NCBI GenBank assembly: GCA_035236585.1
Contig: CP141132.1
Coordinates: forward strand, 60,919,880-60,983,879
DNA length: 64,000 bases
Direction: 5' to 3'
From: Warburgia ugandensis
Lineage: Eukaryota > Streptophyta > Magnoliopsida > Canellales > Canellaceae
Part shown: positions 10,401 through 31,137 of the stretch, in pieces
How the letters are laid out: the number at the start of each line of letters is the position of its first letter
How positions within the stretch are numbered: position 1 is the stretch's first letter
Made by a program: the position numbers and the translations under genes
Notes under the pieces: generated by a model
The model's input: only the letters and a program-made list of their open reading frames with translations
Told to the model about the DNA's origin: nothing
The model's database searches: none

Positions 10401-13400
10401 TCTGAGTGGAATTTGCTGGAATATGCTATTCTGCAACATAAAACTCAAGCAAAAACCCCAGATATCATAATGATCTGGCAGGGTATGCAAGTTACTTTCA
10501 AAATCAAGAGTGTCTTGAATTTGATTATCAAAGAGGCCCAGAATGTTTTTTTCCCTGGAAGACAGATTCATGATAACATCCTCCTTGCTCATGAGGTGCT
10601 CACCTCATTCAAGATCTCTTAAGCTAAAATATAGGAACAGAAATCAAGATAGATATGTTTAAAACATGTGACCTCATCAGGTGGGAGTTACTCAACAAAC
10701 CCTTACTGAGAACAGGATTTCTGAGCAGATGGTTAAACTCGTTATGTTTATGGTTTCAACTACAAGTCTAGCAATTTGCATGAACTGCCAGCAGTTAGAA
10801 TGGTTTAAACCTAGGTGTGGTATTAGGAAGGAGACCCCTTGTACCAGTTTGTAATATGTATGAAAAGCTTTAGCGACTATTCTTCATAATGTATGCTGAT
10901 GATGTCCTAGTGTCAGTTGAGGCATCATTTGAGAACTGTGATGAGCTCAGGAAATTGTTTTATCTGTTTGGTCAAGAATCTGCCCTGAAAATCACTGCTG
11001 GTAATCATCTGTGGTTTTCTCTCGGAATGAGCACCAAAAAGCTCATAAACCTCTGTACAAAATCCTTAATATCTTAAATGGAACCTGTTCTTTCTAAGAG
11101 GTCTACTTCTGAGAAATTCGGCCTCTTGAAGAACAGAAGGCAGATTAAGACGACTCCTTGGAAAAGATTACTCCTTTCTAAATCAGGTAGGTTGACTTTG
11201 CTTAGTTCTGTGACTGCTGGAATGGGAACATCTGTTAAGCAAGAGTGCTCTATACCGAACTTTGTTCTCCAAGAGTGTAGAAGACTTCAGAATGACTACA
11301 TTCGGAAAAAAGTAACAAGTAGGATGACAAAGGGAGTCCTAAGGGTTGGTTAGGATAAAGTGGCAGGCAGCAAACTTCATGATGGTCTCGAAGTAAGAGA
11401 CACTTCAAAGATAGACAAAATTTTCAAATAAAGCATGGAGAATTGTTAGATAATCAAACTCTCTTGGTTCTCACTCATAAATACTGAATACCTGAGAGGA
11501 AAATCTATGTTTGAAATTAAAAAAGCTAGTACTACCTCAGCAATGCGGAATGAAATTTTTCAAACTGCCGGGATCTCCTTCATAATAGGATCAGATGAGC
11601 GATTGGCAATGTAAAGAACACCTCTCTTTGGAATGATAACTGGATGGGTTTAGATCTGGTGATAGATCATGTTTTTATTTCTCATTTCAATAGCTGTAAG
11701 AAGGAAGATTGAGTTGCAGATATCCTGTTGCATGACAGCAGGAGGGATTTTTCTAAGGTTTCTGGTTCAAATATGAGGTTGTTTGGTTCCTTCTGAATCT
11801 GGAACCTTCACTATTGGATCTGCCTATAACTTAAAATGCAGCACCAACCATGATGGACATTCTATTAGGAAAATAATTTGGAATAAGAAAGCTTCAGCCA
11901 AGGGGGAAGCTCATCAATTGGCAAATTGCTCATCATAGGTTGCTTGTTAGAGGAAACTCAGATTGCTTCCCAAAGATCAGAAGTTATGCCCAATGTGTAA
12001 TGCTCAAGCTAAGACTATCTTCCATCTGTTGCCCCATTGCGAGCAGGTAAACCTCTTCAGAAAACGGATACTGATTCTTTTGCATTACCAGAGTATGACT
12101 TTTCTAGTATGCAGGCAGCTATGAACATGTGGTTGAAGAAGGCAGAGAAGCAGTTTTGAATGATTTGTTCACAGTAGCAAATGTCCTCAGGAATGATTCT
12201 ATATGATTTAAACAGAAAAGAGTAGTTCATGGTAATAATGCTGACTGGATATGAGTTGCTGTGGAATGAACGGAGGCTAGAGTAATTGAATAGTCAAATT
12301 CCCTTAATAATTGTCCTTTATTCGCAGATGAGCAAGCACCGAATCTAAAATTCTGTTAATAATCTGTCTCCTCAATTATTGCAGTAAGGGAATTATATTC
12401 ACTTAATTAGCAAGCAGAGATGACGATTGACAATGTACAAAGCCCACAAACAGGCCTACAAGATAGTAACTCTAGAAGTAACTATCTCATGAAGCTCCAT
12501 GAAATGCACTTCCGATCACTTAAACCATGCACATGCCAAAGATTAAGATAATTCCTATTCTCCTTACAAGATTTCTTAAGTTATCCACCAAATTTTTTCA
12601 CCATCAATGAATCTTTTGTTACCCAGAAGATTTGAAGTATTGACGTCTTGACAGATCCACGTGTGAGATTGTTTTATATGTATATTGCAATTTTATTTTT
12701 GAACTCTTTTAGGTTATGTGCACAACTACCATCTGAAAATTTTTAAGTAGCAAGTACACTGCAACTTGGACATATAAACAAGTGATATAATGATGAGGAA
12801 CCCCATCATAGTGCTGACTATTCAGGCCTGACTCCTTACTTTAATGATACAATTCCAAGAGGATCAAAATGACAAAACCTACACTACCACATCTAAACAC
12901 TACTACTCCTGAATATTTCTGTAAATGCCAGGCTGCTACAGTCCTTGTTTGGCATTACTGCTTTCATATTCTCAACAGCGATCTAAGATTTGATCTACAG
13001 GGCGTAACATATACAGTGAAAACTCACACTTCCCCAAGGAGGACAATCACAAGCAGTTAAAAAAAATTTGCTATCCTAGGCAAAACAATGAATTGTTATT
13101 TTCTACTGGTAGATGCTGTAATTCATCAATCTTTTCTCTGTAATCAGTATGAATCATCAGTTAAAACCAAATTAAGCTACGAACTGCCATTCCCATGTTT
13201 TTATCACAAAACAATTGTAACCGAAATTAATAATTACGTCACATAGTTGTCCCAATTCCTTGAATCCTTATTTTCAAATCCCACCAGTCACAGTACATAA
13301 GGCTAGTTAAACAAAGACTTGTATAGCAAATCACTGTCAAGCAAATCTCCATCCGAGGCAAATTAACTCGCAAAGTCTGTGAGCTAGGTAGAATAAGCCA

Positions 13401-13846
13401 ATTAATCAGTTGAGTAAAAATTTTGTCAGGTTGGTAGATGAAGGTAATTAAGATTGAGAAGGTAAACATGATGTCGAATTGTAAAACTTAAATTTGGCCT
13501 ATTTTCATCATTCATGTCTTCCTTTTTCCCTCAAAATAAGAAAGCCCCTTTCGAATCGATCGCAAAAGAAGAACAATAAAGAAAAGGAGCTATGTCTCAG
13601 AATAAAGCGATGATGGAGAATTACCGGTCCGTGGGAGCGGTGGCGAGCGACAGGAAATGGAAAAACCGTTGGTTTCGGAAGAGAGGAAAGTGTCAGTTTT
13701 TGCTCCTGTTGGGATTTTGAGGAGGAAAACCCCTTCTCTACGATGTTGCCTATGAGATTTAAAGGATCCAATTTCTTGGATGGAACAGCGAAAGGAGGCT
13801 TTCGAGAAGAAGAAGTCATATTAACACCATTGTCATCCGTCTCCAT
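4320..13846 (-). CDS. IYO: MINIYO/RPAP1-type RNA polymerase II associated protein, 5' part of gene
   Basis: Gene-level entry. Three coding exons on the minus strand (13846-13625, 9775-8719, 4426-4320) join without breaking frame: intron 1 is phase 0, intron 2 splits a codon as G|CT, and exon 3 ends in phase 0. Total so far is 1,386 nt, 462 codons, with no in-frame stop. In Arabidopsis, MINIYO/RPAP1 associates with RNA polymerase II, promotes transcriptional elongation, and acts as a switch for cell differentiation when it enters the nucleus. Family proteins are about 1,400-1,600 residues, so only the N-terminal third is here. The intact frame and good splice sites suggest a live gene whose 3' exons lie beyond the left edge. 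Introns are 3,849 bp and 4,292 bp and hold several transposon insertions. Confidence 0.85.
4677..4856 (-). mobile_element. Au SINE (minus strand)
   Basis: Read on the minus strand this 180-bp unit matches the Au SINE plan from memory. It has a box A-like GGCGTAACGGTAAAAGTTG, a box B-like GGTTCAATGCG after a CACATGACC/AGGTCAC block, then AGCCTCTTGCA, TAAGGCTGC, TTGTGGTCCGGCCCTTCC, GTGCACTGGGG, and a short T-rich tail. It is flanked by an exact 17-bp target duplication, CAATTATGTACCCTAAT, at 4660-4676 and 4857-4873. Only the tail side of the copy has drifted, so insertion is fairly recent relative to the element it sits in. Confidence 0.9.
4861..6140. mobile_element. DNA element with ~115-125-bp terminal inverted repeats (MULE-like or fold-back)
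   Basis: The left end (about 4861-4985, continuing leftward as TTATGTACCCTAAT before the SINE) aligns in inverted orientation with the right end (about 6028-6140). Matched blocks include TATGTACC(C)TAAT, GAAAATCT, GGCC and CATCTAA. Identity by eye is about 70%. Long TIRs and a ~1.3-kb non-coding body fit a non-autonomous MULE or fold-back element. A ~40-bp motif (ATTAGTAGG...GAAGCATCCAATC) occurs twice inside, near 5130 and 5290. No transposase was seen. The Au SINE is inserted at the outer edge of the left TIR. Confidence 0.6.
6141..7323. other. Intron 2 sequence, nothing recognised
   Basis: AT-rich sequence with homopolymer tracts, lying between exons 2 and 3 of the MINIYO-like gene. Short open frames here show no family resemblance. 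Confidence 0.5.
7324..7707. repeat. Fold-back repeat with two ~190-bp arms (TRIM/LTR-like arms)
   Basis: The left arm (about 7324-7516) is the inverted copy of the right arm (about 7518-7707). The centre is a short palindrome, CCTATGAG-TTTAAG-CTCATAGG. The right arm reads TGGTATCAGAGC (near 7548), the complement of the initiator tRNA-Met 3' end commonly used as a plant retroelement primer site, and GTGTGTTAGATATATAACC. The arms therefore look like terminal parts of a small LTR-type (TRIM-like) retroelement arranged head to head. It is a fossil in intron 2 of the MINIYO-like gene. Confidence 0.7.
7708..8718. other. Intron 2 sequence, nothing recognised
   Basis: AT-rich sequence without recognisable coding or repeat content, ending at the exon 2 donor. 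Confidence 0.5.
8719..9775 (-). CDS. IYO: MINIYO/RPAP1 exon 2
   Basis: The exon is 1,057 bp and encodes residues 75-426. It starts after TTTTTACAG (acceptor AG at 9777-9776) with HWAPVGIEL and ends at GGTG|GTAAGC (last exon base 8719). Visible parts are an acidic stretch (DDEEDRDD, about 86-94), FDPIAASAHPIQRKQKKGLD (about 97-116) as in other plant IYO proteins, and a long low-conservation linker. Then comes the RPAP1 N-domain core (EIDAENNARLQKM, then TPEEIAEAQAEIMEKLRP, about 279-309), followed by a basic patch KRRGRDRTGKQKK that could act as a nuclear localisation signal. The start of the RPAP1 C-domain follows (WNAWTDRVEKVRALRFSLDG, about 394-413). No stop or frameshift is seen. Confidence 0.9.
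10340..12290 (+). mobile_element. L1-type LINE remnant, 5' truncated and decayed
   Basis: The element lies in intron 1 of the MINIYO-like gene, in the opposite orientation. Pieces of an L1-type ORF2 appear in order. The reverse transcriptase part has AQNVFFPGRQIHDNILLAHE (10530-10590) and the catalytic box MYADDVLVSVE (10889-10921). Next is the thumb-side SKSGRLTLLSSV (11180-11215). Last comes a zf-RVT-like C-terminal part (around 11970-12060) with C-x2-C and H...C spacing (KLCPMCNAQ, then HLLPHCEQV). Several stops and frame shifts separate them. The endonuclease is not seen, as expected for 5' truncation. No clear poly(A) tail or target duplication was found, so both ends are approximate. 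Confidence 0.8.
12291..13624. other. Rest of intron 1, nothing recognised
   Basis: AT-rich intronic sequence up to the exon 1 donor (CCG|GTAATT, GT at 13624-13623). No coding or repeat structure could be supported. Confidence 0.5.
13625..13846 (-). CDS. IYO: MINIYO/RPAP1 exon 1 with start codon
   Basis: The exon encodes residues 1-74. It opens with METDDNGVNM and contains LIGNIVEKGF (about 31-40) and PFPVARHRSHGP (63-74). The last two are the most conserved N-terminal motifs of plant MINIYO proteins, and in relatives the second is followed, as here, by a short segment ending in APVG or SPVG. The ATG at 13846 was chosen because it gives the family's usual distance to LIGNIVEKG. The donor is CCG|GTAATT in phase 0. 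The 5' UTR should lie just above 13846. Confidence 0.9.
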
Positions 13847-15943: not shown

Positions 15944-15951
15944 CTCAAAAT
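15944..15951. repeat. Left 8-bp target site duplication (CTCAAAAT)
   Basis: CTCAAAAT lies immediately before the TAGGGGTGGCAA terminus and is repeated exactly at 31130-31137 after the opposite terminus. Eight base pairs is the target duplication length of the hAT superfamily. Confidence 0.9.
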
Positions 15952-16150
15952 TAGGGGTGGCAATTCAGGTTGGCGGGCCGTATTTGTGGCGACACGAACA
16001 CGACATGATTAATAGTCGTGTCAAAAACCTATGACTCATACACAACCCGGTTCTTAAAAAAATGACACAACATGACCTGTGTAACACGATTAATTGACTG
16101 AGTCGTGTTGGATACACGACACGAAATGACACGACACGACATGAAACAAC
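15952..16150. repeat. Left hAT terminus and ACACGAC-rich subterminal region
   Basis: The terminus starts TAGGGGTGGCAATTCAGG and continues with many copies of ACACGA, CGTGTC and GACACGAC in both orientations, ending near GACACGACATGAAAC. This resembles the sequence composition of plant hAT ends and hAT MITEs, where such short motifs are likely transposase binding sites. Confidence 0.8.
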
Positions 16151-16226
16151 TCGATTTCCCTTTTACAACTTAGTAAAAAAAACTGCTCCCAAGGGAATGG
16201 AGCCGCTGCTAAACCAACTATAAAAC

Positions 16227-16338
16227 ATAGGATGGTTATGACATAACCGTCCTATAAGTTATGTTTTATAGGACGGTTGTAAAATAACCGTCCTATATGT
16301 TAAGTTTTATAGGACGGTTGTACGATAACCATCCTATA
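16227..16338. repeat. Palindrome cluster 1 (three hairpins)
   Basis: Three consecutive hairpins with stems of the TAGGACGGTT/AACCGTCCTA type and 6-8-bp loops, spaced about 40-45 bp apart. The cluster is about 275 bp inside the left terminus. Confidence 0.9.
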
Positions 16339-17059
16339 TGTTATGTGTTTTATTGGAACGTTGTGATTGATCTTCTGATTCTGACTTAACGAATCTTTGA
16401 TCACCTGAAGCAATGACAATGAGGTTTTGGAGCAGAAAATCAGAATTCAATGGCATGGGTCTTTCAGTTATGAACAACTAAACTTTCAACTCAACCCCCA
16501 AATAAATTGTTAGGATGGAATTCATTTCTCCAACCCCTCTCATGCTCATTGTCATTGGTCATTGCTCTATCCACTGATCCGCACGACAAGTAGATAGACA
16601 AACACAGAAAAGCATTACTAACTAGTATTGGTGAAAATTGAACTATACCAAATTACCAATAAAGTTTCTGTAACATTTTAGTATTTTATTTAGAAGCAAC
16701 ACAGTTCTTTACACCACTCACTGACTCACATCACATGATATGTAAAAGAGACTGAAATGAATCAAATAACCACAATAGTAGTAAATAAATAGGGATTAAG
16801 TAGCACATGAGGGAAATCTACTTCCATCAATGTATCAAACACAACAAATTAAAATAAGTTATGAAAATTATACAAATTAATCAAAATGAATTAATCCAGA
16901 GTCTTCAGTTGGTTGAAATGATCCTGCATTGCTACTTATGCTTACAATGTCCTCGACAAACTCATCCATGGCAACTGTAATGGTAGAGTCTACAATCATA
17001 TAGAATAAACACGCATTAGTCATTACTAAGCTCATATAAAATATAATGTAAATATAGAA
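16339..17059. other. Spacer between left palindromes and hAT gene
   Basis: Holds the presumed 3' UTR of the minus-strand hAT transposase gene. No other feature recognised. Confidence 0.5.
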
Positions 17060-19200
17060 TTATAAACTATTACCTTTCAATCCATATAGCCAATCTCTTA
17101 CACAAATCAATGCTTGCACGATATCTGGCTTTAAAGTAGATCTATATTGGTCAAGAACTCGACCACCAACGCTAAAAATAGACTCTGATGCAACTATAGA
17201 TATAGGAATGCTCAAGACATCACGAGCCATGGCAACAAGTTCAGGATACATAAAATCAACATTTGAATCAAATATAAATGTAAATAAGATTACAGAAAAT
17301 AGTGTTTACATGATATTATTAGTCAAACAACCTGTATTGATTGCCTTTCTAGAATGCAAGAATGTCTAGCTTTGACTCTTGCAATCTTGGTTCATCCAAA
17401 TAAAGCTCCAATTGTGATTTTTGCATAGCCAAAGTACCTCCTTCACCTTCAAATGAATCAAATTCCTAATACAAATACATTATATTATTCAATGTACTAT
17501 AAGACAATTCATAGCAAATTTTAATATGCTAAGTAGTAAGCGACATATAATGAAAGATACAATTATAAATAAAATTACCTTCATGACATCTAAAACCTCT
17601 TGACTATATGACATGTTCTGTCTATCATCAGTACCTCTAGCCACTGGGGAAGATGAGGAGGAAGGAATAGGATAAATCTTAACCATATATTCATTGAAGA
17701 GAGAGAATAACTTTTTCTGAACTTGAGTAAACTCCAAGCAGCCACTGCCAAACAATTTCTTGTACAAGAATTCCACAAAGGAGAGCTTATACCGAGGATC
17801 CAACACACATGCAATTGCCAAAATGGTGTTGAATTCAGACCAGTACTTTGAAAACTCGGCAAACATTTGAGTGGACATACGCTTCATATAGTCATCATCA
17901 CTTCTCATGTATTGTGTTAAACTCAAATAAATTACAAATGTTGCACGAAGGTAGAGATTTGCAGTGGGATACTTGGATCCAAAGAACATGCAGGTGGCAT
18001 CATAAAAAACTGCCAAAAACTTTGAAATTTTTGTAACCTTTTCTCATTCATTGAAAGAAGGACAGTGCTTATAATTTGAGTCACTTAGTTCTAAGTGACA
18101 AAATGCACGTTGGTAACAAAGAGCACTTTCAAGCATCAAATAGGTTGAGTTCCATCTTGTAAGACAATCTTGTCTTAAGCCTTTTTTTGTCTCAATTGAC
18201 ATGTGATTCACACACTCTAAAAAAATTTGTTTTCAACTTTGTCATGCTTTGACATACTTGATACTCTCTCTAATTTTTTGAATAGCATCATTAATTTCTT
18301 TCAAACCATCTTGCACAATCAAATTCAAAACATGAAAACAACAACGTAGATGAAGGAACTCTCTACCACAAACAAGAGTGTTCCTGATGTTTAATTGATG
18401 CCTTAACATCTCAATAGAAGAATCATTAGCAGAAGCATTGTCTAAAGTGATTAAAAAAAAATATTTTTCTCAATTTCCCATTCTACCAATAATGAGTATA
18501 TCTTTTCTACTAATGATATTCCATTATGTGGAGGTGGTAGGAAACAGAAATTTAATATCCTCTTTTGTAAAACCCACTGACTATATAGAAAATGTGCTAT
18601 GAGACTTATATAACCATCAATAATACAAGAAGTCCACAAATCCGATATCAAACTTATCCTGCCAGGTGCCAACTTTAACATCTCTTTTATCTTTCCTTTT
18701 TCTCTTTTATACATTCTCAGAACATTTGCTTTTACTGTATTTCTACTAATCAAGTGCAAATCTGCATGCAAATATTTCAGTAGAGTTCTAATTCCATCAT
18801 ACTCAACAAATTGGAGAGGCAAATCATGCAAAACAACTGCAGCTGCTACTAACTCACGATAAACTTCAGGATTAAACTCATTATCTGAAGCTACACTTAA
18901 TGACATACTCCCCTGACTTTGAGATAAAAGCAACTGGCCTATATCATGAGAAGAGCTCCGTTGACAAGTCTTTATATGACGTTTTCAATTACCAGTGCCA
19001 AATTTGCTATCGCAAATATATATTGCAGAGCACTTCTTGCATTTACACCTTTGCCTTCCATCTTCTGATAGAGGAAGGTGTTCAAAAAATTTTCAAACTG
19101 GAGACATTAGTTTCCTATGATTTTTACCTTTATTGAATTTTGAAACTAACTCCACGTTCTCCAAATCAACAAGCTTATCATCATCGTTGTTGTGGTGTAG
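17060..19200 (-). pseudogene. hAT transposase (BED finger, RNase-H-like core, dimerisation domain), decayed
   Basis: Parts appear in family order on the minus strand. The BED zinc finger is at about 19085-18955 (CKKCSAIYICDSKFG, then KRHIKTC). The N-terminal part of the core is in a 160-residue frame at 18933-18451 (FVEYDGIRTLLKYL, SDLWTSCIIDGYISL). The insertion side of the core is at about 18450-18240 (DNASAND, HLRCCFHVLNLIVQDGL). A DUF4413-like part is at 18016-17489 (AVFYDATCMFFGS, ACVLDPRYKLSFVEF). The C-terminal hAT dimerisation domain is at 17251-17060 (SIPISIVASESIFSVGGRVLD, with a break before it). Damage includes a frame shift at the A9 run near 18455, broken frames around 18040-18230, and a TAG in the DILAFWK motif near 17352. 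Introns appear to separate the last two parts. The cysteine pair and HLRCC-H motif are retained. Confidence 0.85.
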
Positions 19201-19707
19201 CATATTTAAGTTATCAGAAACATCAGTGCTCCCAACTTCAACTTATGCCCTATATTGCAAAATGTAAATGACAAAAAAAAAAATTAGTTCACACTAACAG
19301 TAAACTAAACACTACACCAACAATTACTAATAAGGGAAGGGAGCGAGAGTGTGGAATGAAAAGAATCAGAATCATAATTTCATAAAGAAATAACAAAAAA
19401 CAAACACATAATTGTGGTGCTGTACCTGTAGTAGTAGGGGTGTTGCTCCTCATCGTGTTAGAAGGGTTAAACTTGAAGAAGATATCTGGAAAGGAAAATC
19501 TGCAACATATGTAAAATTGTAAATTATAAAAGCAGCTTGGGTTAGGTTGGGTTTGGGGAGCCTTTAACTGATTCAGGCGATTCTGTATTTGATTGATGTT
19601 ATTTATATATGACGGCTCAATAACAACAGTCTTATAATATAACAAAAAATAAAAGACCGTTGATAATAGTCAATATTACAGGACAGTTAATAGAAAAGAA
19701 AACCAAA
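19201..19707. other. Upstream region of the hAT gene
   Basis: Probable leader and promoter side of the minus-strand hAT gene. A minus-strand frame at 19645-19289 is open but not recognisable. No TATA box is assigned. Confidence 0.4.
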
Positions 19708-19973
19708 TAGGACAGTTATGTATTAACCGTCCTATATTGTCTAAATATAGGACGGTTATGCACTAACCATCCTATTTATAAAATATAGGACGGTTATGCA
19801 CTAACCGTCCTATATTTATAAAATATAGGATGGTTATGTATTTACCGTCCTATATTGTATAAATATAGGACGGTTAGTGCATAACCGTCCTATATTTGTA
19901 ACATATAGGATGGTTTTACGTTAGCCGTCCTATATTGTCTAAATATAGGACGGTTATGCATGAACTGTCCTAT
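19708..19973. repeat. Palindrome cluster 2 (seven hairpins)
   Basis: Seven consecutive imperfect palindromes spaced about 38-45 bp, each a TAGGA(C/T)(G/A)GTT stem, a short loop, and the inverted stem. A half copy (AGGACAGTT) lies just to the left near 19680. The cluster is located in the divergent region between the two genes. Confidence 0.9.
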
Positions 19974-20984
19974 TTTAGACATATGGGATATGGTTTATTA
20001 GTACTTTACCAATCTGTGAGTGTGACTGTGATGTGCCAGATTTCCAGTGACCAGTCTGCCTGTGTCGACAAACCGCCTAGCCTTGGCGCCGGCCTGCCTA
20101 ACAGGGACAGATAGCCTTCTTTCCTCCAATTCCAAACTAGCAAGTGGCAACTGGAGTTAATGAAACTTACACTTCAATCATTTGTCAAATATTTTGAGTC
20201 CTTGTCCTTGATGTTACTTGTTATGTTAGATCCGATGTGTGGGCCTCCCTTGTAGTGGCGGGAAAATAAAATGAAAACTGAAAACATAAAGGTTTAACTT
20301 TAACTAATTAATAATTATCTAGGTCTACTAAGTCAATTTAATCTAAGGCAATTGTTTTGTCTTTTTGTATGTAAGTAAGCTCAAATCCAATTATCCAATT
20401 GAATTTGAAGTCTTATCCTAAAGCGCCCTAACCTGGCTGGTTGTTTGCTATAACTATAAGTTATAACTTATAACGGTATAACCTAAGGCTAAGATGTAGC
20501 TACGACCTACACAGTACGCACTGTCTCTAATTTTCTTATCAACCATTTTAAGATTAGCTGCGCACTATTAGTTACAAACTTACAAGTTACTTTTAGTAGA
20601 AAATTAGTTGACCAAGTTTTGTAACTTGTACAAGTACAAGTGATAGACTAACTAACTATCATATATTGTATAAAATTATAAATGCTAATGATTTTCTCAT
20701 GTTAATTTCACATGTCATCACCAAACACCAATTGATCTAATATATCTCTTTTTCATCAAATTCATGAATATCATGTATCCAACTCTTATAACTCAATATT
20801 TGTTTCTCATTTCTAACTCCTAATTGATGATAATAGATTGGGAATAACTCATTCATCTATGATCCATTGATCCATCATTCATGTAGAGTAAAATTTAGTA
20901 ACTCCCTTAGTAATATCATTCAACATTTGTGTTAATTCAACACATAACTCCTATTCTCTGTTCTCATTCTCACCTCACCTAAAT
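19974..20984. other. Divergent intergenic region inside the hAT-ended unit
   Basis: Begins with a short GC-rich patch (about 20040-20110, containing TTGGCGCCGGCC) and then turns AT-rich. No coding content was recognised. Confidence 0.5.
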
Positions 20985-21720
20985 ACCTAATGAGTTAATT
21001 ACATAACTAATAACTATTCCCTTCGGACCCTTCCTATACTCATTATCCACTAATGAGATAATTGCATAACTCTTTCTATACTCATTTTCAAGCTACTGAG
21101 TTAATTACATAACTGTTTCTATTCTCATTCACTCATTCTTACCTAATGAGTTAATTACATGACTCTTTCTTTACATATCGTCAACAACTTTTGAATTGAG
21201 TATGACTTACTTAACTTTGCTTTTTTAAGCTGATCCTCAACTGAGATCAGATGAGTTAAATACATAACACTTACTTTACTCATCCTCAACCTCAACAACT
21301 ATTGAATTGAGTATGACAGTATGAGTTACTTACATAACTTTGTTTAGTTTTTAAGCCGATACTCAATTGAGATGAGTTAATTACATATATGCTCTGTCTT
21401 TTTAAGTTAGCTCATCCTTAAGGAAATTAAGATGAGTTAATTACATAACTCTTTCTTTAGTCTATACTTAATAACTGATCTTTTTAAGCACATCCTCGAC
21501 TAAGATTAATTAATAACTCTTTCTTTACTCATCCAGTCATGTCATCCTCTTCAACTGAGATGAGTTAATTACATATATGCCCTGTCTTTTTAAGCTCATC
21601 CTTAAGGAGATTAAGATGAGTTAATTACATAACTCTTTCTTTACTCTATACTTAGTAACTATTTTTATTTGAGTATATCATCAACTAAGATTAATCAAAT
21701 ACATAACTCTTATAGCTTAT
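20985..21720. repeat. Imperfect direct repeats built on a GAGTTAATTACATAACT motif
   Basis: GAGTTAATTACATAACT followed by CTTTCTTTACTC or a near match occurs about nine times between 20992 and 21690 at irregular 55-120-bp spacing, alternating with CTCATCCTCAACTGAGAT-type motifs. It reads as a degenerate tandem array older than the 181-bp array. Confidence 0.75.
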
Positions 21721-21796
21721 AGCGTTATGCAACGGTTATGCAACAACTCAACAACCGTGAACCATCTACCTTTCTAATAAATAAATAAGACTTAAA

Positions 21797-21909
21797 CAAC
21801 CATCCTATATAACTTATAGGACATTAGACAGTTATAAAAAAAACCGTCCTATATATATTTGAATATTTCATTATATATTAAAGGATGGTTATTTAAAAAC
21901 CGTCCTATA
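21797..21909. repeat. Palindrome cluster 3 (about two hairpins)
   Basis: Two imperfect palindromes of the same family (GGACATTAGACAGTTATA...AACCGTCCTA and AGGATGGTTATTTAAAAACC), the last ending about 60 bp upstream of the first ATG of the plus-strand gene. Confidence 0.75.
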
Positions 21910-21969
21910 TTGTTCTACATATCATTTTTCACCTTGATTAGCCCTAATTTCAAATTTCAATCTTCCAAT

Positions 21970-22035
21970 GGTCCAACCTACTGAGAAGGTGAAAACGACC
22001 ATTCCTCTTCGATCTTTCACAAATCTAAGAGAAAA
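21970..22035 (+). CDS. Possible first exon of the Transposase_24/Ulp1 gene
   Basis: ATG at about 21970 opens a short frame, MVQPTEKVKTTIPLRSF and onward, that runs to AAAAAG|GTATGT. This is the founding unit of the 181-bp array; later units keep EKVKTTIPLRSF but have a TAG just before it. Whether this exon is ever spliced to the exon at 25975 cannot be told from sequence. Confidence 0.4.
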
Positions 22036-25000
22036 AAGGTATGTATTTATGAATTTTAGCATATGTATACAGTAACAGTTTGTGTAAAATACATAAAAAC
22101 TAGTACATTTTTTCAGTTTTGTTGTTGTTTGTTAACGTCTTTTCCATAGATCTTGATGGGTTTTAGTCTGAGAAGGTGAAAACGACCATTCCTCGTCGAT
22201 CTTTCGCAGATCTAAGCAAAAAAAGGTATGTATTTTTGAATTTTCACATTTGTATATAGTTTCTGTAAAAAACGTAAAAATCAGTACGTTTTTTCATTTT
22301 TTTTGTTCTTTGTTAATGTATTTTTCATAGATCTTGATGGCTTTTAGTCTGAGGAGGTGAAAACGACCATTCCTCTTCGATCTTTTGCAGATCTAAGCAA
22401 AAAAAGGTATGTATTTTTGAATTTTTGTATCTGTATATAGTTTCTGTAAAAAACGTAAAAACTAGTACGTTTTTTCATTTTTGTTGTTATTTGTTAACAT
22501 ATTTTCCATAGATCTTGATGGGTTTTAGTCTAAGAAGGTGAAAACGACCAATCCTCTTCAATCTTTCATAGATCTAAGCAAAAAAAGGTATGCATTTTTG
22601 AACTTTCACATCTGTATATAGTTTCTGTAAAAAACGTAAAAACTACTACATTTTTTCTTTTTTTGTTGTTGTTTGTTAACATATTTTCCATAGATCTTGA
22701 TGGGTTTTAGTCTGAGAAGGTGAAAATGACCATTCCTCTTCGATCTTTCGCATATCTAAGCAAAAAAAGGTATGTATTTTTGAATTTTCACATCTGTATA
22801 CAGTTTCTGTAAACACCGTAAAAACCAGTATGTTTTTTCATTTTTGTTGTTGTTTGTTAACGTATTTTTCATAGATCTTGATGGGTTTTAATCTAAGAAG
22901 GTGAAAACGACCATTCCTCTTCGATCTTTTGCAGATCTAAGCAAAAAAAGGTATGTATTTTTGAATTTTCGCATTTGTATATAGTTTCTGTAAAAAACGT
23001 AAAAACCAGTATGTTTTTTCTTTTTCTTTTTTTCTTTGTTAATGTATTTTTCATAGATCTTAATGGGTTTTAGTCTGAGGAGGTGAAAACGACCATTCCT
23101 CTTCAATCTTTTGCAGATCTAAGCAAAAAAAGGTATGTATTTTTTAATTTTTGCATCTGTATATAGTTTCTGTAAAAAACATAAAAACTAGTACATTTTT
23201 TCATTTTTGTTGTTGTTTGTTAATGTATTTTCCATAGATCTTGATGGGTTTTAGTCTGGAAAGGTGAAAACGGCCATTCCTCTTCAATCTTTCACAGATC
23301 TAAGCAAAAAAAGGTATGCATTTTTGAACTTTCGCATCTGTGTATAGTTTCTGTAAAAAACGTAAAAACTAGTACGTTTTTTCATTTGTTGTTGTTGTTT
23401 GTTAACCTATTTTCCATAGATCTTGATGGGTTTTAGTCCGAGGAGGTGAAAACGACCATTCTTCTTCGATCTTTCGCATATCTAAGCAAAAAAAGGTATG
23501 TATTTTTGAATTTTTGCATATGTATACAGTTTCTATAAAAACCGTAAAAACCAGTACGTTTTTTCATTTTTTTTGTTCTTTGTTAATGTATTTTTCATAG
23601 ATCTTGATGGGTTTTAGTCTGAGGAGGTGAAAACGACCATTCCTCTTCGATCTTTTGCAAATCTAAGCAAAAAAAGGTATGTGTTTTTAAATTTTTGCAT
23701 CTGTATATAATTTCTGTAAAAAACGTAAAAACCAATACGTTTTTTCATTTTTGTGGTTGTTTGTTAACGTATTTTCTATAGATCTTGATGGGTTTTAGTC
23801 TGAGAAGGTGAAAACGACCATTCCTCTTCAATCTTTCACAAATCTAAGAAAAAAAAGGTATGCATTTTTGAACTTTCGCATATGTATACAGTTTTTGCAA
23901 AAAATGTAAAAACTAGTACGTTTTTTCTTTTTTTGTTGTTGTTTGTTAACGTATTTTCCATAGATCTTGATGGGTTTTAGTCTGAGAAGGTGAAAATGAC
24001 CATTCCTCTTCGATCTTTCACAGATCTAAGCAAAAAAAGGTATGTATTTTTGAATTTTCGCATCTGTATACAGTTTCTATAAAAAACATAAAAACCAGTA
24101 CGTTTCTTCATTTTTGTTGTTGTTTGTTAACGTATTTTCCATAGATCTTGATGGGTTTCAGTTTGAGAAGGTGAAAATGACCATTCCTCTTCAATCTCTT
24201 GCAGATCTAAGCAGAAAAAGGTATGTATTTATGAATTTTCGCATTTGTATATAGTTTCTGTAAAAAACGTAAAAACCAGTACGTTTTTTCATTTTTTGTT
24301 GTTGTTTGTTAATGTATTTTTCATAGATCTTGATGGGTTTTAGTCTGAGGAGGTGAAAACGACCATTGCTCTTCGATCTTTTGCAAATCTAAGCAAAAAA
24401 AGGTATGTGTTTTTTAATTTTTTCATATGTATATAGTTTCTGTAAAAAACGTAAAAACCAATACGTTTTTTCATTTTTGTTGTTGTTTGTTAACGTATTT
24501 TCCATAGATCTTGATGGGTTTTAGTCTGAGAAGGTGAAAACGACCATTCCTTTTCGATCTTTCACAAATCTAAGAAAAAAAAGGTATGCATTTTTGAACT
24601 TTCGCATATGTATACAGTTTTTGCAAAAAATGTAAAAACTAGTACATTTTTTCTTTTTTTGTTGTTGTTTGTTAACGTATTTTCCATAGATCTTGATGGG
24701 TTTTAGTCTGAGAAGGTGAAAATGACCATTCCTCTTCGATCTTTCACAGATCTAAGCAAAAGAAGGTATGTATTTTTGAATTTTCGCATCTGTATACAGT
24801 TTCTATAAAAAACATAAAAACCAGTACGTTTTTTCATTTTTGTTGTTGTTTGTTAACGTATTTTCCATAGATCTTGATGGGTTTCAGTTTGAGAAGGTGA
24901 AAACGACCATTCCTCTTCAATCTTTTGCAGATCTAAGCAGAAAAAGGTATGTATTTTTGAATTTTCGCATCTGTATACAGTTTCTATAAAAAAACGTAAA

Positions 25001-25245
25001 AACCAGCACGTTTTTTCATTTTTTGTTGTTGTTTGTTAATGTATTTTCCATAGATCTTGTTGGGTTTTAGTCTAAGAAGGTGAAAATGACCATTCCTCTT
25101 CGATCTTTCACTGATCTAAGAAAAAAAAGGTATGTATTTTTGAATTTTAGCATCTGTATATAGTTTCTGTAAAAAAACATAAAAACCAGTACATTTTTTC
25201 ATATTTTTTGTTTTTTGTTAACTATTTTCCATAGATCTTGATGGG
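21977..25245 (+). repeat. 18-unit tandem array, ~181-bp period, each unit exon/intron-like
   Basis: Eighteen head-to-tail units were counted by two independent markers: 18 occurrences of an AAG|GTATG(T/C) donor-like sequence (from about 22035 to 25130) and 18 of a TTTTCCATAG|ATCTTGATGG acceptor-like sequence (from about 22150 to 25230). The spacing is 178-184 bp. Each unit has a ~76-bp block (ATCTTGATGGGTTTTAG, then GAAGGTGAAAACGACC, ATTCCTCTTCGATC, AGATCTAAGC) and a ~105-bp intron-like block (CAGTTTCTGTAAAAAACG, TTGTTGTTGTTTGTTAACG). Copies differ by scattered substitutions. The first unit diverges on its left, where the ATG replaces the TAGATCTTGATGG sequence. Confidence 0.95.
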
Positions 25246-25974
25246 TTTTAGTGCTATGTGTATAAGAAACATTCCATTTAGTTCTTTGCTCTAGATTTGA
25301 GTTTGCTTTTAGGTTTTTTACAGTTTTTCTGAAGAAATCAGTTATGAAAAAAAAAAAAAAAAAAAAAAAAAAGTCATTGTTTTTCGTATTTCTTCATTGA
25401 AACTTATTTCTATCCACATATAGAGCTTTCCCATGTTGTGTGTTCATGTGTGATAACATTTTCTTCTTCTTCTTTTTTGTAATTTAGTGTTATTTTTTAA
25501 TTTTTCCAAAAAAAAGTTACAAAAATTAGGAAAAAATTGTTCTTTTTTTTGTATTTATTAGTTAATACCTATTCTTATCCACATATATAGCTTACTCATG
25601 CTTGAATCTTCAAGTATTAATAATTTTTAGCTAATTTTTAGCATTTTAGCTAATCTTTAATAACAAATAATATAATTTTGGGCTAAAGCAATCAGGCTTT
25701 AGGGCCAAGCCTGCGCCTAGGAGCCCAAGGCTCCAGACGCACCCCTTTGCCCCTTGGGATGCCTCTCCCCTTTAACTACATAGCAGACAGTAGTGATCCG
25801 ACCCTACTACCCTAGCAAGTTAGCAACCTTGATCAGTTGAGGAATTGGCTGTCAATTTTGTCCGTAAACTGAGATTGTAAATCCTTCTCTATGAATCTAT
25901 GATCAAACTGTAAAAACACTTTCCACTTTTCTTGTCTAACTGTAGTCATTTTCATTTTTATTTGTGAAGCAAAC
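25246..25974. other. Spacer between array and Transposase_24 exon, with poly(A) run and GC-rich patch
   Basis: Contains an A24-type homopolymer (about 25348-25372), AT-rich sequence, and a sharply GC-richer patch at about 25690-25790 (GGGCCAAGCCTGCGCC, CACCCCTTTGCCCC). No gene recognised. Confidence 0.6.
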
Positions 25975-28900
25975 ATGGAGCAAGTAGAAGAGGTACAAGT
26001 AGAACAATTACAACACACAGAAGTAGAACAATCAAGGCTATCAAGCACATGTCCATCAGTAACACCACCGGTCAGTGTCAAGAGAAAGGTCAGGGGGAGG
26101 GGGCCAACACAAATGAATCCTAGAAATAAGAGAACCTCAGTTGGAATAAAAGAAATGGTACAATTCAACAATAGAGGCCAGCCGATTGGTGGTATTGCAC
26201 ATGCCTATGCTAGTTTCATATGTTGCACTGTCAGAAGACTTGTGCCAGTATCAGCCACTGATTGGAGACTTGTATAGCCACAAGTCAAAGATTCAATATG
26301 GGAAATGGTCAAGGTATGTAAATTCTTCGTACATATAACATAATATGTCCTTTATATTTATCTATTTTGTTTTTGTTTGCATATTAATCAAGATACACAA
26401 AGTTGCTATAATACTCACTAGTAAGTTAGTCACTTTAACATGCTTCTTCTTTTGTTTTGTAGTATGCCTTTGACGTATCTGATGAGTGTAAGAAGCAAGC
26501 ATTACTAGGAGCTCGTGAAGCTTTGAGGAAATGGAAGAGTGAGCTTGCAAGGAAGTACATACTTCCAAATTCCCATGATCCTTCTACGCTTAACATGGTC
26601 CCTCAATTGTATTCCTGCTTCATTGACCAGGAAACATGGAATCAATTTGTATAGTATAGGCTATCTCCTGATTTTGAGGTAATCACAACTTGAACTAGCC
26701 AAGCTAAATATTGATTCTTGTAATTATTATAATTGATTGTATTTTGATCTCATTACTTTGATGTTCAGGCAAAGCGTATAAAAGGACAGAAGGCGCATGC
26801 ACAGAACCATATGCCGCATCACCTTTCAAGGGTTAGCTATGCATGATTAGAGGCAGATGTAGTAAGTATATCATGTGACATTCCATTTGTCTAATCATAT
26901 TAGATTTTTATTTATTAACTTTGACTTAGTGTTTCTTATTACAGCAAAAGAAGGATGGGACAACGAAGCCCATCGACTATCTTATTCTATGAAAAATGGC
27001 ACATTCGAAAGGGCGCAACTCCCACACTTTGCCAATGAGACAACTGCAGCAATTGCTTCAAGAATTGTAAGTGGTTTAAGACTTTAAGTTTTATACTTTT
27101 ACTTTATCTGCATATTGCCTAGTTAAATACTTGTATACCCTTGCATAGTACATTATATAAATATTACATATATAATAGTGATTTGATCATGTTATGATCT
27201 TTACGTGTGCTGGAAGAGTTGACCCAAGAGAGTGCAAGTGCAACTATAGGGACTCTTAGCAGCACTGCTGCAAAGGGGGACATCCTGTATAGGGCAATGG
27301 GCAACAAGGATGAGCACCCTAGCGGGGTAAGGGGCTAAGGTCGGGGTGTTTTTCCTTCCAAGTTCTTCCCCAAACAAAAGGCTCCTTTGCTACAAGAATT
27401 CGAAGAATGAAAGAAGCAAACAGTTGTGGTGATATATAGAAAGATCAAAGATCAACTGTTGAAGGAAATCCAGGGTGGCGGAAGAACCTCATGTGAGGAT
27501 GTTGGCCCTCAAGCTGAAGCTCAACCTCGAGTTCAACCACCCCAATTTGATAATAACTGCACTCCTAGTCCTTCATTAGATGAAGAGGTGGCAGAACAAG
27601 TACTTGAAAGTGATGTCCTGATCAGTGAGGTATGTATATTGACTTGTTTAGTTTTATAATGTTACTTATTTACTAACCTTTTTAGTTTACATTACATCAC
27701 TAATTATTATTATATATATATATGTCATTTCTCAAATGCAAGTGGGTCAGTGCATGTTGCAGCTACATACATCTGAGAACCATGTGGCTGTGGCAACATT
27801 GTACGAGGTTCGGCCCATGACTTCCGCCACCTTGCATGGTAAGCTGATGCCTCCACACACTAAGCGCATGTGCATCACTACTGCTGTTCAACCAGATGCT
27901 CCCCTTCCATTTCCAGTCGAAGGGGATGATGTTGAAACTGTTGGGGATGTAATTGGATATCATGTGTGTTGGATAGAGAAACACATAAAACCAATGATAT
28001 CTAATTCCAAGGTACATATATATTAACTGTAGTCATGGTTTCATTTTCTCCTACCTTTTTTTAAGTCTTGCTAAATTGTTCATTGATTAATATTGTCTAC
28101 AACATGTCGGATCACCAAAAGCAGCACAAGGGGCAATTGAAGCAAACCTTGCTGCCGGCAAATTCTGGCGCAGCGGCAAGTATAGCCACATCCCAGCCTT
28201 CTTAGGTAGTACTAGTTCTATATATTTGCATAGTTGTATCATGTTACATGTGAACTTGAATGATGCAACAACTAACAAGTTCAAAGCACTTGTTAGGTGC
28301 TCACTACTCACAAGTCAGTAGTCACAATGTTATATTATAAAATATTCTAATTTTACCTCACTGTGTCTCTTCTTTTATATATGCTAGTATACCAGTATAT
28401 GTTGTATATACTCATTACTAATTTCTAAAATGTTACATTATTACATCTACAGTGTAAGAATCAGGTCTAACACACCTCCATTCCTAAGGGTACTGTACAG
28501 ATTGACCAATGAAGGCAACACAAATACAATGAACCTTGTAAGGATAGAGGCAGGTGTGCCTTCAAATGATGTGGTTGAGGTTCCACTCTTTAAGGAAGAC
28601 CTCTTAACCATATGTAATATGGATCAATTGGAGTACATGCACATCATAGTCTATATAGGGTCGTCGTGTAACTGCTCTATTAGAGTTAAGACTTACTAAT
28701 CAATGTAATATTACTTAATACTTGCTTTTTTAATAACACTTAATAATTATTTGACATTAACCCAAATTCCAAAAGCAAGTATTTGCATGATAGCTTGCAA
28801 AGACTAGAGGGCAAGGACATTTACAAGTTCCTTGACCATTCTCTTGTCTTTCGATTGGACTATTTGCCCACGGACAAACAAAGTGAAGATATCATTCCTG

Positions 28901-29552
28901 GTCTCATGAGTTGTGCGAAGGGGCAAGCCTTACTGATTCCCTACAATAGCGGGTACCTTGTAACATATGTTGCTTAATTATGCCATTTTAATTTCACAAT
29001 TCATACACATGAATACTAATACTATATCAGTTAAGATTAGAAAAAATTCAATTGAATTGTTATTTTTATAGGTCCCATTGGATGCTGTTAGCTTTGGATA
29101 TGCATGGTGGCCATGCAATTTTTTTTATTCATGTGGAGCACACATTCGGGAACACTTGATGGAAATTATAAACAAGTAAGTCTTTATTATTCCTTTTATT
29201 ATAATATAACTACTCACTTGGCAACTATAATAATATTCGTAATCTAATGCTTTTCAATTATATGTGTGTAGAGCATAGTATAAATGGGATGAGAGGGAAG
29301 GCATTCACCACCCACCAAAACTCAACTGGAAGAAGGCCAAGGTATGGCTTACTAATTACTGCTCTTTAGACTCTTTGATATAATTTTAAACCTGAACTTA
29401 TTGGAAATTATATTTTGAAACTTTTCTATTGTCTTTGGTGGCATTATTCTGCAGTGCCCTAAACAAAAATCAGATTGGGAGTGTGGATATTATGTTCTTA
29501 GATACATGAGAACCCTCATTCGCAATGGAGTTACAGTCTCACAATTGAGAAA
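25975..29552 (+). pseudogene. Multi-exon Transposase_24-like/Ulp1-protease gene of CACTA type
   Basis: Exons inferred from GT/AG sites and family similarity: 25975-26313 (starts MEQVEEVQVEQL; KVRGRGPTQMN, then FNNRGQPIGG), 26463-26678 (FDVSDECKKQAL, ALRKWKSELARKYI), 26769-26861, 26945-27066 (IDYLILWKMAHSKGR), about 27205-27629 (SGVRG-like glycine motif), about 27743-28011 (DUF8039-like: VAVATLYE, LPFPVEGDDVETVGDVIGYH), about 28108-28206, 28452-28690, 28776-28952, 29072-29176, 29270-29340 and 29455-29552. The last exons form an Ulp1 (C48) protease: HWMLLALD carries the histidine and CPKQKSDWECGYYVLRYM the glutamine and cysteine. In-frame stops are seen near 26275, 26653 and 26846, and the C-terminus after QLRK is not found. 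Acceptors of the middle exons are uncertain. In plants this domain set normally belongs to CACTA (En/Spm) elements. Confidence 0.8.
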
Positions 29553-30177
29553 GGTAAGACTTAGACTTATTGACCAATGTTACACTTTTGATTTGTATAT
29601 TTCCTGACTTAATCCAAGATTACATGTCTGATCTCTGAACTAAGTTATTATATGTTTCTTGATGGTGGATTTGGGAAGCATGAGTTACTCCCAATTAGAT
29701 CTAGATGATATTAGAATGGAATGAACAGATCATATTATGAATTTTAATTTGTAGTTCAGTGATGAAAATGAATGTATATTATCATTTATGTATATATATA
29801 ATTTACTCAAATATAATACAAAGATCAGTTCATTTCAATGGATGTGTTCTATTTTTCTTTTGATTGAAGTGCACGATTTCAATGTATGTGCTTTCTTTGT
29901 TTCAAACTTTTAAATTTCAATGATGTGATTGTGAAGTTGGTGTTTTGATCAGCAGATAGGTTGATCATCAATTTTCAATGATGGCTTAGATCAACAGATG
30001 GGTTGTATCATGTACATACAGATATAGTATGGTTGATACTGAAGCAGATAACTTTGGAGAGGGAGGCATATATGGAGGTTGAAAATTGAAATTACTGATA
30101 CTAAAGTTGCAGATATGATTCATATGAATATGATTCCAAATTAAAAACAAATTTATACCAAAATAATGATAAATAAG
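29553..30177. other. 3' flank of the Ulp1 gene
   Basis: AT-rich, with short repeated phrases (GATCA(G)CAGAT(A/G)GGTTG near 29950 and 29992). No terminator-like or coding structure assigned. Confidence 0.45.
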
Positions 30178-30243
30178 ATGGTTCTAGAAAAACTGTTCTA
30201 TATAACTTAGTAATATAGGACGGTTCCTGAAGAACCGTCTATA
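30178..30243. repeat. Palindrome cluster 4
   Basis: One good hairpin (ATAGGACGGTTCCTGAAGAA followed by CCGTCT) preceded by a degenerate one (GATGGTTCTAGAAAAACTGT). Confidence 0.8.
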
Positions 30244-30299
30244 TATCTCCAACTAACACTAAGTTCCATCGTAAATAACCACTTTCCTAGATCCCATCC

Positions 30300-30720
30300 C
30301 ACGAATGATAACTACAACAATCAAAACCAAAGTTTAAAATGAAACATCAACAATACCGCATTGCGTCAGAAAGATCTGATATCAACTCCCTAAGAAATAG
30401 GCCCAAAATCCAAGAGCAGATCCAAACAATTCTAGAACAAAATCGATCCAGAAAACAGCGATCTCCAGAAATTCCCTTCCCTAGACCACATTCAAACCCC
30501 TTACTCAACCAAAACCGCAAAAATATGTACGGAACAACACAAATCACAACCAATCTACACACAAACCACAAATCGCAATCCTCGCCTCAGAACAACCTCG
30601 AATAAGACAAATCCCCCCCCCCGATCGGCCAAAAACAAGCTCCTTGAACACCTAACACAAGAATCAACTCGCAAACACAAAAAAAAAAAAAAAAAAAAAC
30701 CCACCTTAAGATCAGAAAAC
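30300..30720 (-). promoter_or_regulatory. Plant 5'-leader-like sequence (possible captured host fragment)
   Basis: On the minus strand this is T/G-rich with phrases typical of plant 5' UTR introns (GATCGATTTTGTTCTAG, TTTGGATCTGCTCTTGG, TTTTTGCGGTTTTGG). It includes a C10 run (about 30610) and an A22 run (about 30680) on the plus strand. The base composition differs clearly from the flanks. There is no protein-level support, and the reading is by resemblance only. Confidence 0.3.
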
Positions 30721-30748
30721 GAATCAATAGGCTAAAAAAGAGAACCTA

Positions 30749-30892
30749 ATATAGGACGGTTCTTCAAGAACCATCCTATATAACTAGTAATATAGGATGA
30801 TTTTTCAGGAACCGTCCTATATAAATTGAGTAATATAGGACAGTTCATGAGGAATCGTCCTATATTACATGAGTAATATAAGACGGTTCCTA
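30749..30892. repeat. Palindrome cluster 5 (three hairpins and a half copy)
   Basis: Three consecutive hairpins with TAGGACGGTTC/GAACCGTCCTA-type stems, spaced about 45 bp, plus a left half at about 30880. The cluster lies about 240 bp inside the right terminus, mirroring cluster 1 near the left terminus. Confidence 0.9.
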
Positions 30893-30939
30893 TATTTTCA
30901 ACCATTCCATAGGTTAGAATCGTTTCAAGGTGATGAGTA

Positions 30940-31129
30940 AATAGGTCACGTGTCAAACAGGTCGACACGACGGGTCAAATTGATTGACTCGAACACGACA
31001 CGATTTTTGGCGTGTCATTTTCAGGTGACCCAAAAATGACACAAACACGATAAGACTCGACCCGAACCCGCTAAATTCGTGTTGGGTTCGAGTCATGTTA
31101 TCGTGTCGTGTCATATTTTGCGGCCCCTA
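30940..31129. repeat. Right hAT terminus and CGTGTCG-rich subterminal region
   Basis: Rich in ACACGA/TCGTGT motifs and ending in TTTTGCGGCCCCTA, the inverted counterpart of the left terminus TAGGGGTGGCAA. Confidence 0.85.
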
Positions 31130-31137
31130 CTCAAAAT
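31130..31137. repeat. Right 8-bp target site duplication (CTCAAAAT)
   Basis: Exact copy of 15944-15951, directly after the right hAT terminus. Confidence 0.9.

Follow-up and report, generated by a model that had tools for sequence, protein, structure and literature searches.

We analysed a 64,000-nucleotide stretch of the Warburgia ugandensis genome (assembly GCA_035236585.1, contig CP141132.1, positions 60,919,880 to 60,983,879 of the forward strand), referred to here as the window, in which a transposon with hAT-type ends carries two divergent genes, a hAT transposase gene and a gene of CACTA transposon type designated gene 2. Without its duplications the element spans positions 15952-31129 (15,178 bp). 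It is bordered by the target-site duplication CTCAAAAT, whose left (15944-15951) and right (31130-31137) copies are identical at 8 of 8 bases. The left terminal inverted repeat (TIR; 15952-15963, plus strand) is TAGGGGTGGCAA, an end shared by 19 of 20 other copies fetched from the same genome, the exception (L018) having lost one base. The right TIR (31118-31129, minus strand) reads TAGGGGCCGCAA inward, two bases off the common form, and is identical to the left one at 10 of 12 positions. The right end is also TAGGGGTGGCAA in 7 of the 13 other copies with both ends, and the two mismatches of the window copy thus look like its own decay. The exact 8-bp duplication and the hAT-type ends described in the first-pass annotation of this DNA are therefore borne out.

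Read from the left, the 12-bp end is followed by roughly 200 bp dense in ACACGA motifs, stem-loop cluster 1, the minus-strand hAT gene and stem-loop cluster 2. After the repeat-rich central region come stem-loop cluster 3, the tandem array of 181-bp units and the plus-strand gene 2, and the element closes with stem-loop cluster 4, roughly 200 bp dense in TCGTGT motifs and the opposite 12-bp end. The left subterminal region (15964-16200, plus strand) carries many ACACGA/CACGAC motifs, and the right one (30900-31117, minus strand) many CGTGTC/TCGTGT motifs.

Exon pieces of the hAT transposase gene occupy positions 17072-19176 of the minus strand; the counted frames contain 5 stops, and the frame shifts once near 18455. 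Of the domain set of hAT transposases, Pfam recognised in the window the RNase-H fold part (17489-18043, minus strand; PF14372, E=4.7e-26) and the C-terminal dimerisation part (17072-17260, minus strand; PF05699, E=8.6e-22). The zf-BED profile PF02892 was found by Pfam in none of the window pieces and was recognised only in the sister copy L025; the homologous region of the window lies at about 18943-19092 of the minus strand. The L025 protein shows a weak match to the Hermes transposase (E=0.001), and a search of the PDB with one window open reading frame (ORF) of the hAT gene gave 0 matches. The segments SDLWTS, LDNAS and SES are readable in the gene, and we take them to be the putative catalytic D-D-E motifs. 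Across 14 copies, stops interrupt the hAT gene at 29 places; 7 of these places are common to two or three copies and none to all.

Gene 2 (25975-29553, plus strand) is oriented divergently from the hAT gene and resembles a multi-exon accessory gene of CACTA type, interrupted in the window copy by 6 stops in 644 codons. Its Ptta/En/Spm domain (about 26625-27350, plus strand) was placed by comparison with the copy L026, whose exon pieces, joined by eye, match PF03004 (Transposase_24) with E=3.2e-15 and 56.9 bits at a cut-off of 28.7; the broken window pieces gave no Pfam match to the Ptta domain. A six-frame genome search with PF03004 returned 0 of 12 candidates, and its control likewise 0 of 14 genomes, so this search is uninformative. 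As judged from its profile scores, a predicted Ulp1/C48 protease domain (PF02902) is present at about 28771-29553 of the plus strand, with 23.8 bits on the window pieces and 32.7 bits on joined pieces of L026 and L016 at a cut-off of 20.7. For the CACTA transposase TNP2 (PF02992), none of 150 scored places out of 5074 genome candidates lay in the window, the ORFs of which were partly scanned.

Stem-loop repeats are distributed over four clusters. Cluster 1 (16226-16338), found at this place in 7 of 7 full copies, consists of three units of the form TATAGGACGGTT-N7-AACCGTCCTATA; cluster 2 (19606-19974), upstream of the hAT gene, contains eight units; cluster 3 (21793-21910), upstream of gene 2, contains one full unit (21879-21909) and half units; and cluster 4 (30750-30864), inside the right end, contains three. 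A single degenerate stem-loop is located 3' of gene 2 (30172-30202). The exact GGACGGTT words (eight) and exact AACCGTCC words (eight) of the window all lie inside the element. In 7 of 7 full copies, the window copy included, clusters lie within each end and to either side of the central region (19990-21780), which separates the divergent genes, carries diverged GAGTTAATTACATAACTC-type repeats and was matched in 16 of 20 fetched copies. The stem-loop pattern gave 0 matches in viral and prokaryote collections. A possible derivation of the stem-loops from CACTA ends was examined: genome-wide, CACTACAA occurs just before TAGGACGGTT, with 1-14 bases between, at 112 places versus 0 for a reversed control. 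These pairs are clustered, occur in both orientations and look more like spacers within stem-loop arrays than like the ends of elements; the fetched copies contain no exact pair, and near forms are present in L026 and L027. Possibly, the 112 places belong to another transposon family with the same stem-loops.

Between cluster 3 and gene 2 lies an array of 18 tandem 181-bp units (21981-25252, plus strand), 14 of which match a 76-bp block between TAG and AAG/GTATG, both splice-site-like. Located 5' of gene 2, the array looks like an exon multiplied together with its splice sites. The number of its units ranges from 2 to 18 among the full copies, which accounts for part of the extra length of the window copy.

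Further copies of the element were sought in the same 1.12-Gb assembly of 14 contigs. A first look yielded 1575 candidates for the left end (301 bases), 2716 for the right end (238 bases), 1422 for a gene-2 exon and 760 for a hAT exon; the best 40 per probe were scored, and the candidate numbers are to be taken as rough abundance rather than copy counts. The 39 scored places other than the window, out of 40 per probe, had subterminal regions 82-93% (left) and 93-95% (right) identical to those of the window. From 20 of the 39 other left-end places, picked for a match reaching the end, 10 kb were fetched. The hAT gene was present in 13 of the 20 and absent from 7, which proved to be short deleted elements of 1.5-4.3 kb with both ends, flanked by duplications matching at 8 of 8 bases in L011, L019, L022 and L023 (in L023 after adding four end bases) and at 7 of 8 in L012, L013 and L014. 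Seven hAT-gene copies, those with gene 2 already visible within 10 kb, were read further, and the other six were read to 10 kb. Both ends and both genes were recovered in six of these seven, with lengths of 13,584, 13,025, 12,454, 12,154, 14,866 and 14,783 bp. Their duplications, compared by eye, match at 8 of 8 bases in L016, L018 (allowing for the one-base loss in its left end), L026 and L027, at 7 of 8 in L021 and at 6 of 8 in L009. Gene 2 holds the same place and orientation in all six, although it has an insert in L009 and has suffered a deletion in L021. An inverted hAT-gene fragment with 85% identity lies about 1.5 kb beyond the right end of L021 (13965-14499 of the joined stretch).

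Linkage of the parts was also evident from the lists of the best 40 places per probe (out of 1575, 760 and 1422 candidates), which are independent of the preselection of copies and include the window copy. Left end and hAT exon were paired 12 times in the correct order and strand (chance expectation 0.0025), hAT exon and gene-2 exon 7 times (0.012), and no other arrangement of these probe pairs occurred in range among the listed places. This pairing indicates linkage of the ends to both the transposase gene and gene 2 at many unlinked loci. Candidates for the gene-2 exon are about twice as numerous as those for the hAT exon, which, the queries differing in length, is a hint only; gene 2 may also reside in other element families.

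Thus, ends, duplications, hAT gene, central region, gene 2 and stem-loops recur in the same order at unlinked loci, which identifies the whole of about 12-15 kb as the transposing unit. The window element is, with high confidence, one decayed copy of a high-copy two-gene hAT family, in which the entire length transposes and deleted copies have moved too. Among the deleted copies, L011, L014, L022 and L023 have a common layout of about 4.2 kb, which keeps the central region, has neither gene and is found at four loci with duplications; this gene-less form points to mobilisation in trans. The first-pass annotation had proposed that one hAT-ended unit moved whole and that the co-occurrence of its ends be sought elsewhere in the genome; the search supports it, both ends being found together, with duplications of their own, in 13 of the 20 fetched copies. 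A genome search with the insertion flanks matched only the two flanks of the window insertion in this assembly.

The traits of the family are mixed with respect to superfamily. Duplications of 8 bp, typical of the hAT superfamily, match at 8 of 8 bases in the window and, among the 13 other copies with both ends, at 8 of 8 in eight, 7 of 8 in four and 6 of 8 in one; the left end is of the short TAGGG type of hAT inverted ends. The length of the duplications differs from the 2-3 bp of CACTA elements, and neither the ends of the unit nor its inner boundaries carry CACTA termini, isolated CACTACA words being found inside it. The subterminal stem-loop repeats are a CACTA-like trait, with a motif different from that given in the excerpted text of PMC2613891. 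Gene 2 is of transposon type (PF03004 and PF02902), which sets the family apart from Pack-hAT elements with their cargo of host genes.

Among 14 copies the hAT genes share 93-98.5% identity, and 97-98.5% within a younger group (L024-L028). From the majority base the window copy deviates at 3.2% of sites in the hAT gene and 4.4% in gene 2. C-to-T and G-to-A substitutions outnumber every other class of private change (287 of 621 and 245 of 453), as would be expected of methylated, silenced elements. The first-pass annotation had correctly noted stops in both internal genes and had concluded from the perfect duplication beside them that the unit was mobilised late. This argument fails, and late mobilisation on this ground is rejected: at the observed divergence all 16 duplication bases would remain untouched with a probability of 0.59 or 0.49, so that about every second element this diverged would keep a flawless duplication despite its broken genes. 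Eight of the 13 other copies with both ends have a perfect duplication as well.

The ends and duplication of the window unit taken alone are not beyond chance. An exact 8-bp repeat next to inverted 12-bp ends with at least 10 matches occurs in 37 pairs in this AT-rich window, the pair of the unit included, which would suit an accidental juxtaposition of TIR-like sequences with an 8-bp repeat. Of these pairs, however, 27 fall within the 181-bp array and 9 elsewhere besides that of the unit. The end pair is considered real because subterminal sequence is common to both ends and, above all, because of the other copies. An alignment of the left with the right 420-bp end scores 101 versus at most 42 in 200 base-shuffled controls; it starts at about base 107 inward and owes much of its score to the stem-loops. 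The 13 other two-ended copies with duplications of their own at 6-8 of 8 bases refute the chance explanation, in agreement with the first-pass annotation. A short hAT element or hAT miniature inverted-repeat transposable element of about 400 bp of ends, split by a large CACTA-like insertion and sole owner of the duplication, would explain the CACTA-like character of gene 2 and the stem-loops, the confinement of hAT-specific subterminal sequence to about 200 bp on each side and the perfect outer duplication, which would survive nesting; single CACTACA words within the unit (for instance at 19310 and, in inverted form, at 20257) and direct repeats, at most 11 bp long, shared by the inner boundaries (3 exact repeats of at least 8 bp versus a control mean of 1.2) could be read in the same way. 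Such a nested origin at this locus is nevertheless highly improbable, as one event at one locus cannot give the same end-to-end order at six other loci with different duplications. No CACTA end was found at the inner boundaries (16050-16420 and 30700-31060); 14 inverted-end candidates there have duplications of only 2 bp and, like the mismatch-free 11-bp direct repeats, fall within stem-loops or CACGAC motifs, and no hAT-end-like sequence occurs inside the unit at up to 2 mismatches. Local nested insertion of a CACTA element is thus refuted by the recurrence at six loci, and an ancient nesting followed by spread as one element becomes a route of acquisition within the explanation by a two-gene hAT family.

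Joint mobilisation of adjacent insertions is a proposed route to Pack-type elements, as described in the excerpted text of PMC8903248, and the outer ends of two neighbouring hAT insertions might likewise have moved together with the unrelated DNA between them. The stem-loops on both sides of the hAT gene and of gene 2 would fit such a macrotransposition. It is very improbable for the window unit, given that inner ends at up to 2 mismatches and inner GACACGA words are lacking and that the structure recurs at other loci; as an ancient origin of the family, it could have taken place. The main rival concerns gene 2 itself, which might be passive cargo acquired by transduplication as in Hatvine-6 or Pack-hAT elements, with no function in transposition. 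Passenger sequences in hAT elements are on record (PMC2528002 and PMC8903248, in the excerpts available), deleted copies without either gene have also moved, and gene 2 shows no codon-position signal. On the other side stand the constant place and orientation of gene 2 in six other full copies and the stem-loops flanking both genes. Among six aligned copies the stops of gene 2 fall at 15 places, of which 12 are private, 3 are shared by two copies each and none is common to all, which indicates that the source copies had an open gene. Stop-free frames are present in the young subfamily (0 stops in 643 codons of L027; 0 in 645 of L026, by choice of frames), a weak argument since little divergence separates the groups. 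Taken together, passive cargo appears unlikely, if still a serious contender.

Several observations weigh against the reading of the element as an integrated two-gene family. The six of seven copies with both ends and both genes are not a random sample, having been preselected for a visible gene 2; L015 has gene 2 and no right end within 14.5 kb, the other six of the 13 hAT-gene copies have no gene 2 in the 10 kb examined, L017 has neither the central region nor gene 2 in its 10 kb, and 33 of the 40 listed gene-2 places have no partner among the best 40 hAT places. The PF02902 score varies with the reading of the middle exons and falls to 21.6 bits in an all-L026 reading. No CACTA element bearing this gene 2 came to light, as six 3.6-kb stretches around CACTA transposase genes contained no stem-loop and matched gene 2 at chance level only. 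Comparisons inside the family gave no selection signal for gene 2: changes private to one copy and those shared are spread evenly over the three codon positions, with the reading frames of L026 as well as with poorer ones. Differences between the young and old subfamilies fall on codon positions 1/2/3 in the numbers 3/6/10 in the hAT gene and 14/7/10 in gene 2 (imperfect frames). In the absence of a codon-position signal, upkeep of gene 2 is not demonstrated. Furthermore, DNA binding by the Ptta domain itself is not stated in the excerpts of the cited literature.

As to the mechanism, the hAT transposase would cut and paste the element via its 12-bp ends. Gene 2 might have been acquired from a CACTA-type element, either together with the stem-loop repeats or with later adaptation to them. 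Its protein may bind the stem-loops at both ends and in the central promoter region, and this binding may keep the element expressed and/or help to bring its ends together. Recognition of the stem-loops by the gene-2 protein is suggested by analogy with TNPA of En/Spm and with VANC proteins of VANDAL elements, and we give this role rather less than an even chance. According to the excerpted text of PMC2613891, transposition requires TNPA, a protein that binds subterminal repeats, and stem-loops can form from the subterminal repeats of soybean CACTA elements. VANC proteins, some of them with a Ulp1 domain, act on short motifs and remove silencing (PMC13317346, in the part available). It is accordingly conceivable, at a likelihood just short of even, that a hAT lineage became a two-gene system by taking up a CACTA accessory gene with Ptta and Ulp1 domains along with stem-loop sites, and that the acquired protein recognises these sites at both ends and at a shared central promoter, where it would counter silencing or assemble the ends.

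In the remainder of the window, an RPAP1-like host gene is located at 8555-13780 of the minus strand, with PF08621 in the ORF 8555-9802. Its likely first exon, recognised by motifs, is placed at about 13.6-13.8 kb, so that some 2.2 kb separate it from the left transposon end. Frames at 39394-39828 and 58429-61940 resemble, by eye, remnants of Ty3/gypsy retrotransposons.

Besides the grapevine families Hatvine-1 to -11, plant hAT elements include the families Ac and Dart. The window family has in common with plant hATs, as represented by Hatvine-1 to -11 in the excerpted PMC2528002, the 8-bp duplications, short inverted ends, hAT transposase and many deleted copies. The grapevine families measure 2-5.5 kb, with Hatvine-6 given as 'variable' in the same text, so that the length of three to five times that of ordinary hAT elements stated in the first-pass annotation is roughly right for the window unit; it is a property of the family and not, as implied there, a singular feature. 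Unlike here, the families reported with Ulp1 in that text are Mutator-like elements (MULEs) and CACTAs. With CACTA/En-Spm elements the family shares the Ptta domain, named for En-1 (PMC2613891), with some CACTA families such as Cactavine the Ulp1 domain (PMC2528002), and with the soybean 20.5-kb element Tgmt* the stem-loop-forming subterminal repeats and great length (PMC2613891), in each case as far as the excerpts go. In contrast to CACTA elements, which have CACTA termini, a 3-bp duplication and a TNP2 transposase, its ends, duplication and transposase are those of hAT.

MULEs have a Mutator transposase and a 9-bp duplication, unlike the window unit, and we know of no Ptta domain in the Ulp1-bearing non-TIR MULEs. 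The family resembles the latter (Kaonashi/VANDAL VANC) in combining a transposase with an accessory gene, with Ulp1 in some; their accessory protein counters silencing by way of short motifs in its own element (review PMC13317346, excerpted text). With Pack-hAT and Hatvine-6 it shares hAT ends around foreign sequence (PMC8903248, PMC2528002). The cargo described in the available parts of these sources comes from the host genome and, in Hatvine-6, is often unique or common to few elements, whereas the window unit carries a transposon-type gene found in all 7 full copies. Transduplication in hATs, Ulp1 in MULEs and CACTAs and Ptta in En-1 are already in print (PMC2528002, PMC8903248, PMC13317346 and PMC2613891, by their excerpts). 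Searches of the open literature for composite, two-gene or long hATs, for the terminal and stem-loop sequences and for hATs with Ulp1 found, among the papers listed, no such family, nor a hAT family with a resident Ptta-Ulp1 gene. Among the papers listed for hAT together with Ulp1, PMC2528002 alone contained both terms, and its excerpts assign Ulp1 to MULEs and CACTAs; Repbase lies outside the literature covered, and the family may already have a name.

Plant hATs are usually regarded as elements with a single gene and a length of a few kb. A family two to three times longer than the longest grapevine hAT, with a CACTA-type gene and stem-loops, would show that control modules move between superfamilies and would, by the excerpts of the cited literature, add a third superfamily with Ulp1-type genes after MULEs and CACTAs. 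The many copies and deleted derivatives make the role of gene 2 directly testable by comparison. If true, such a transfer of a module would explain the spread of the family to perhaps hundreds to a thousand or more long copies.

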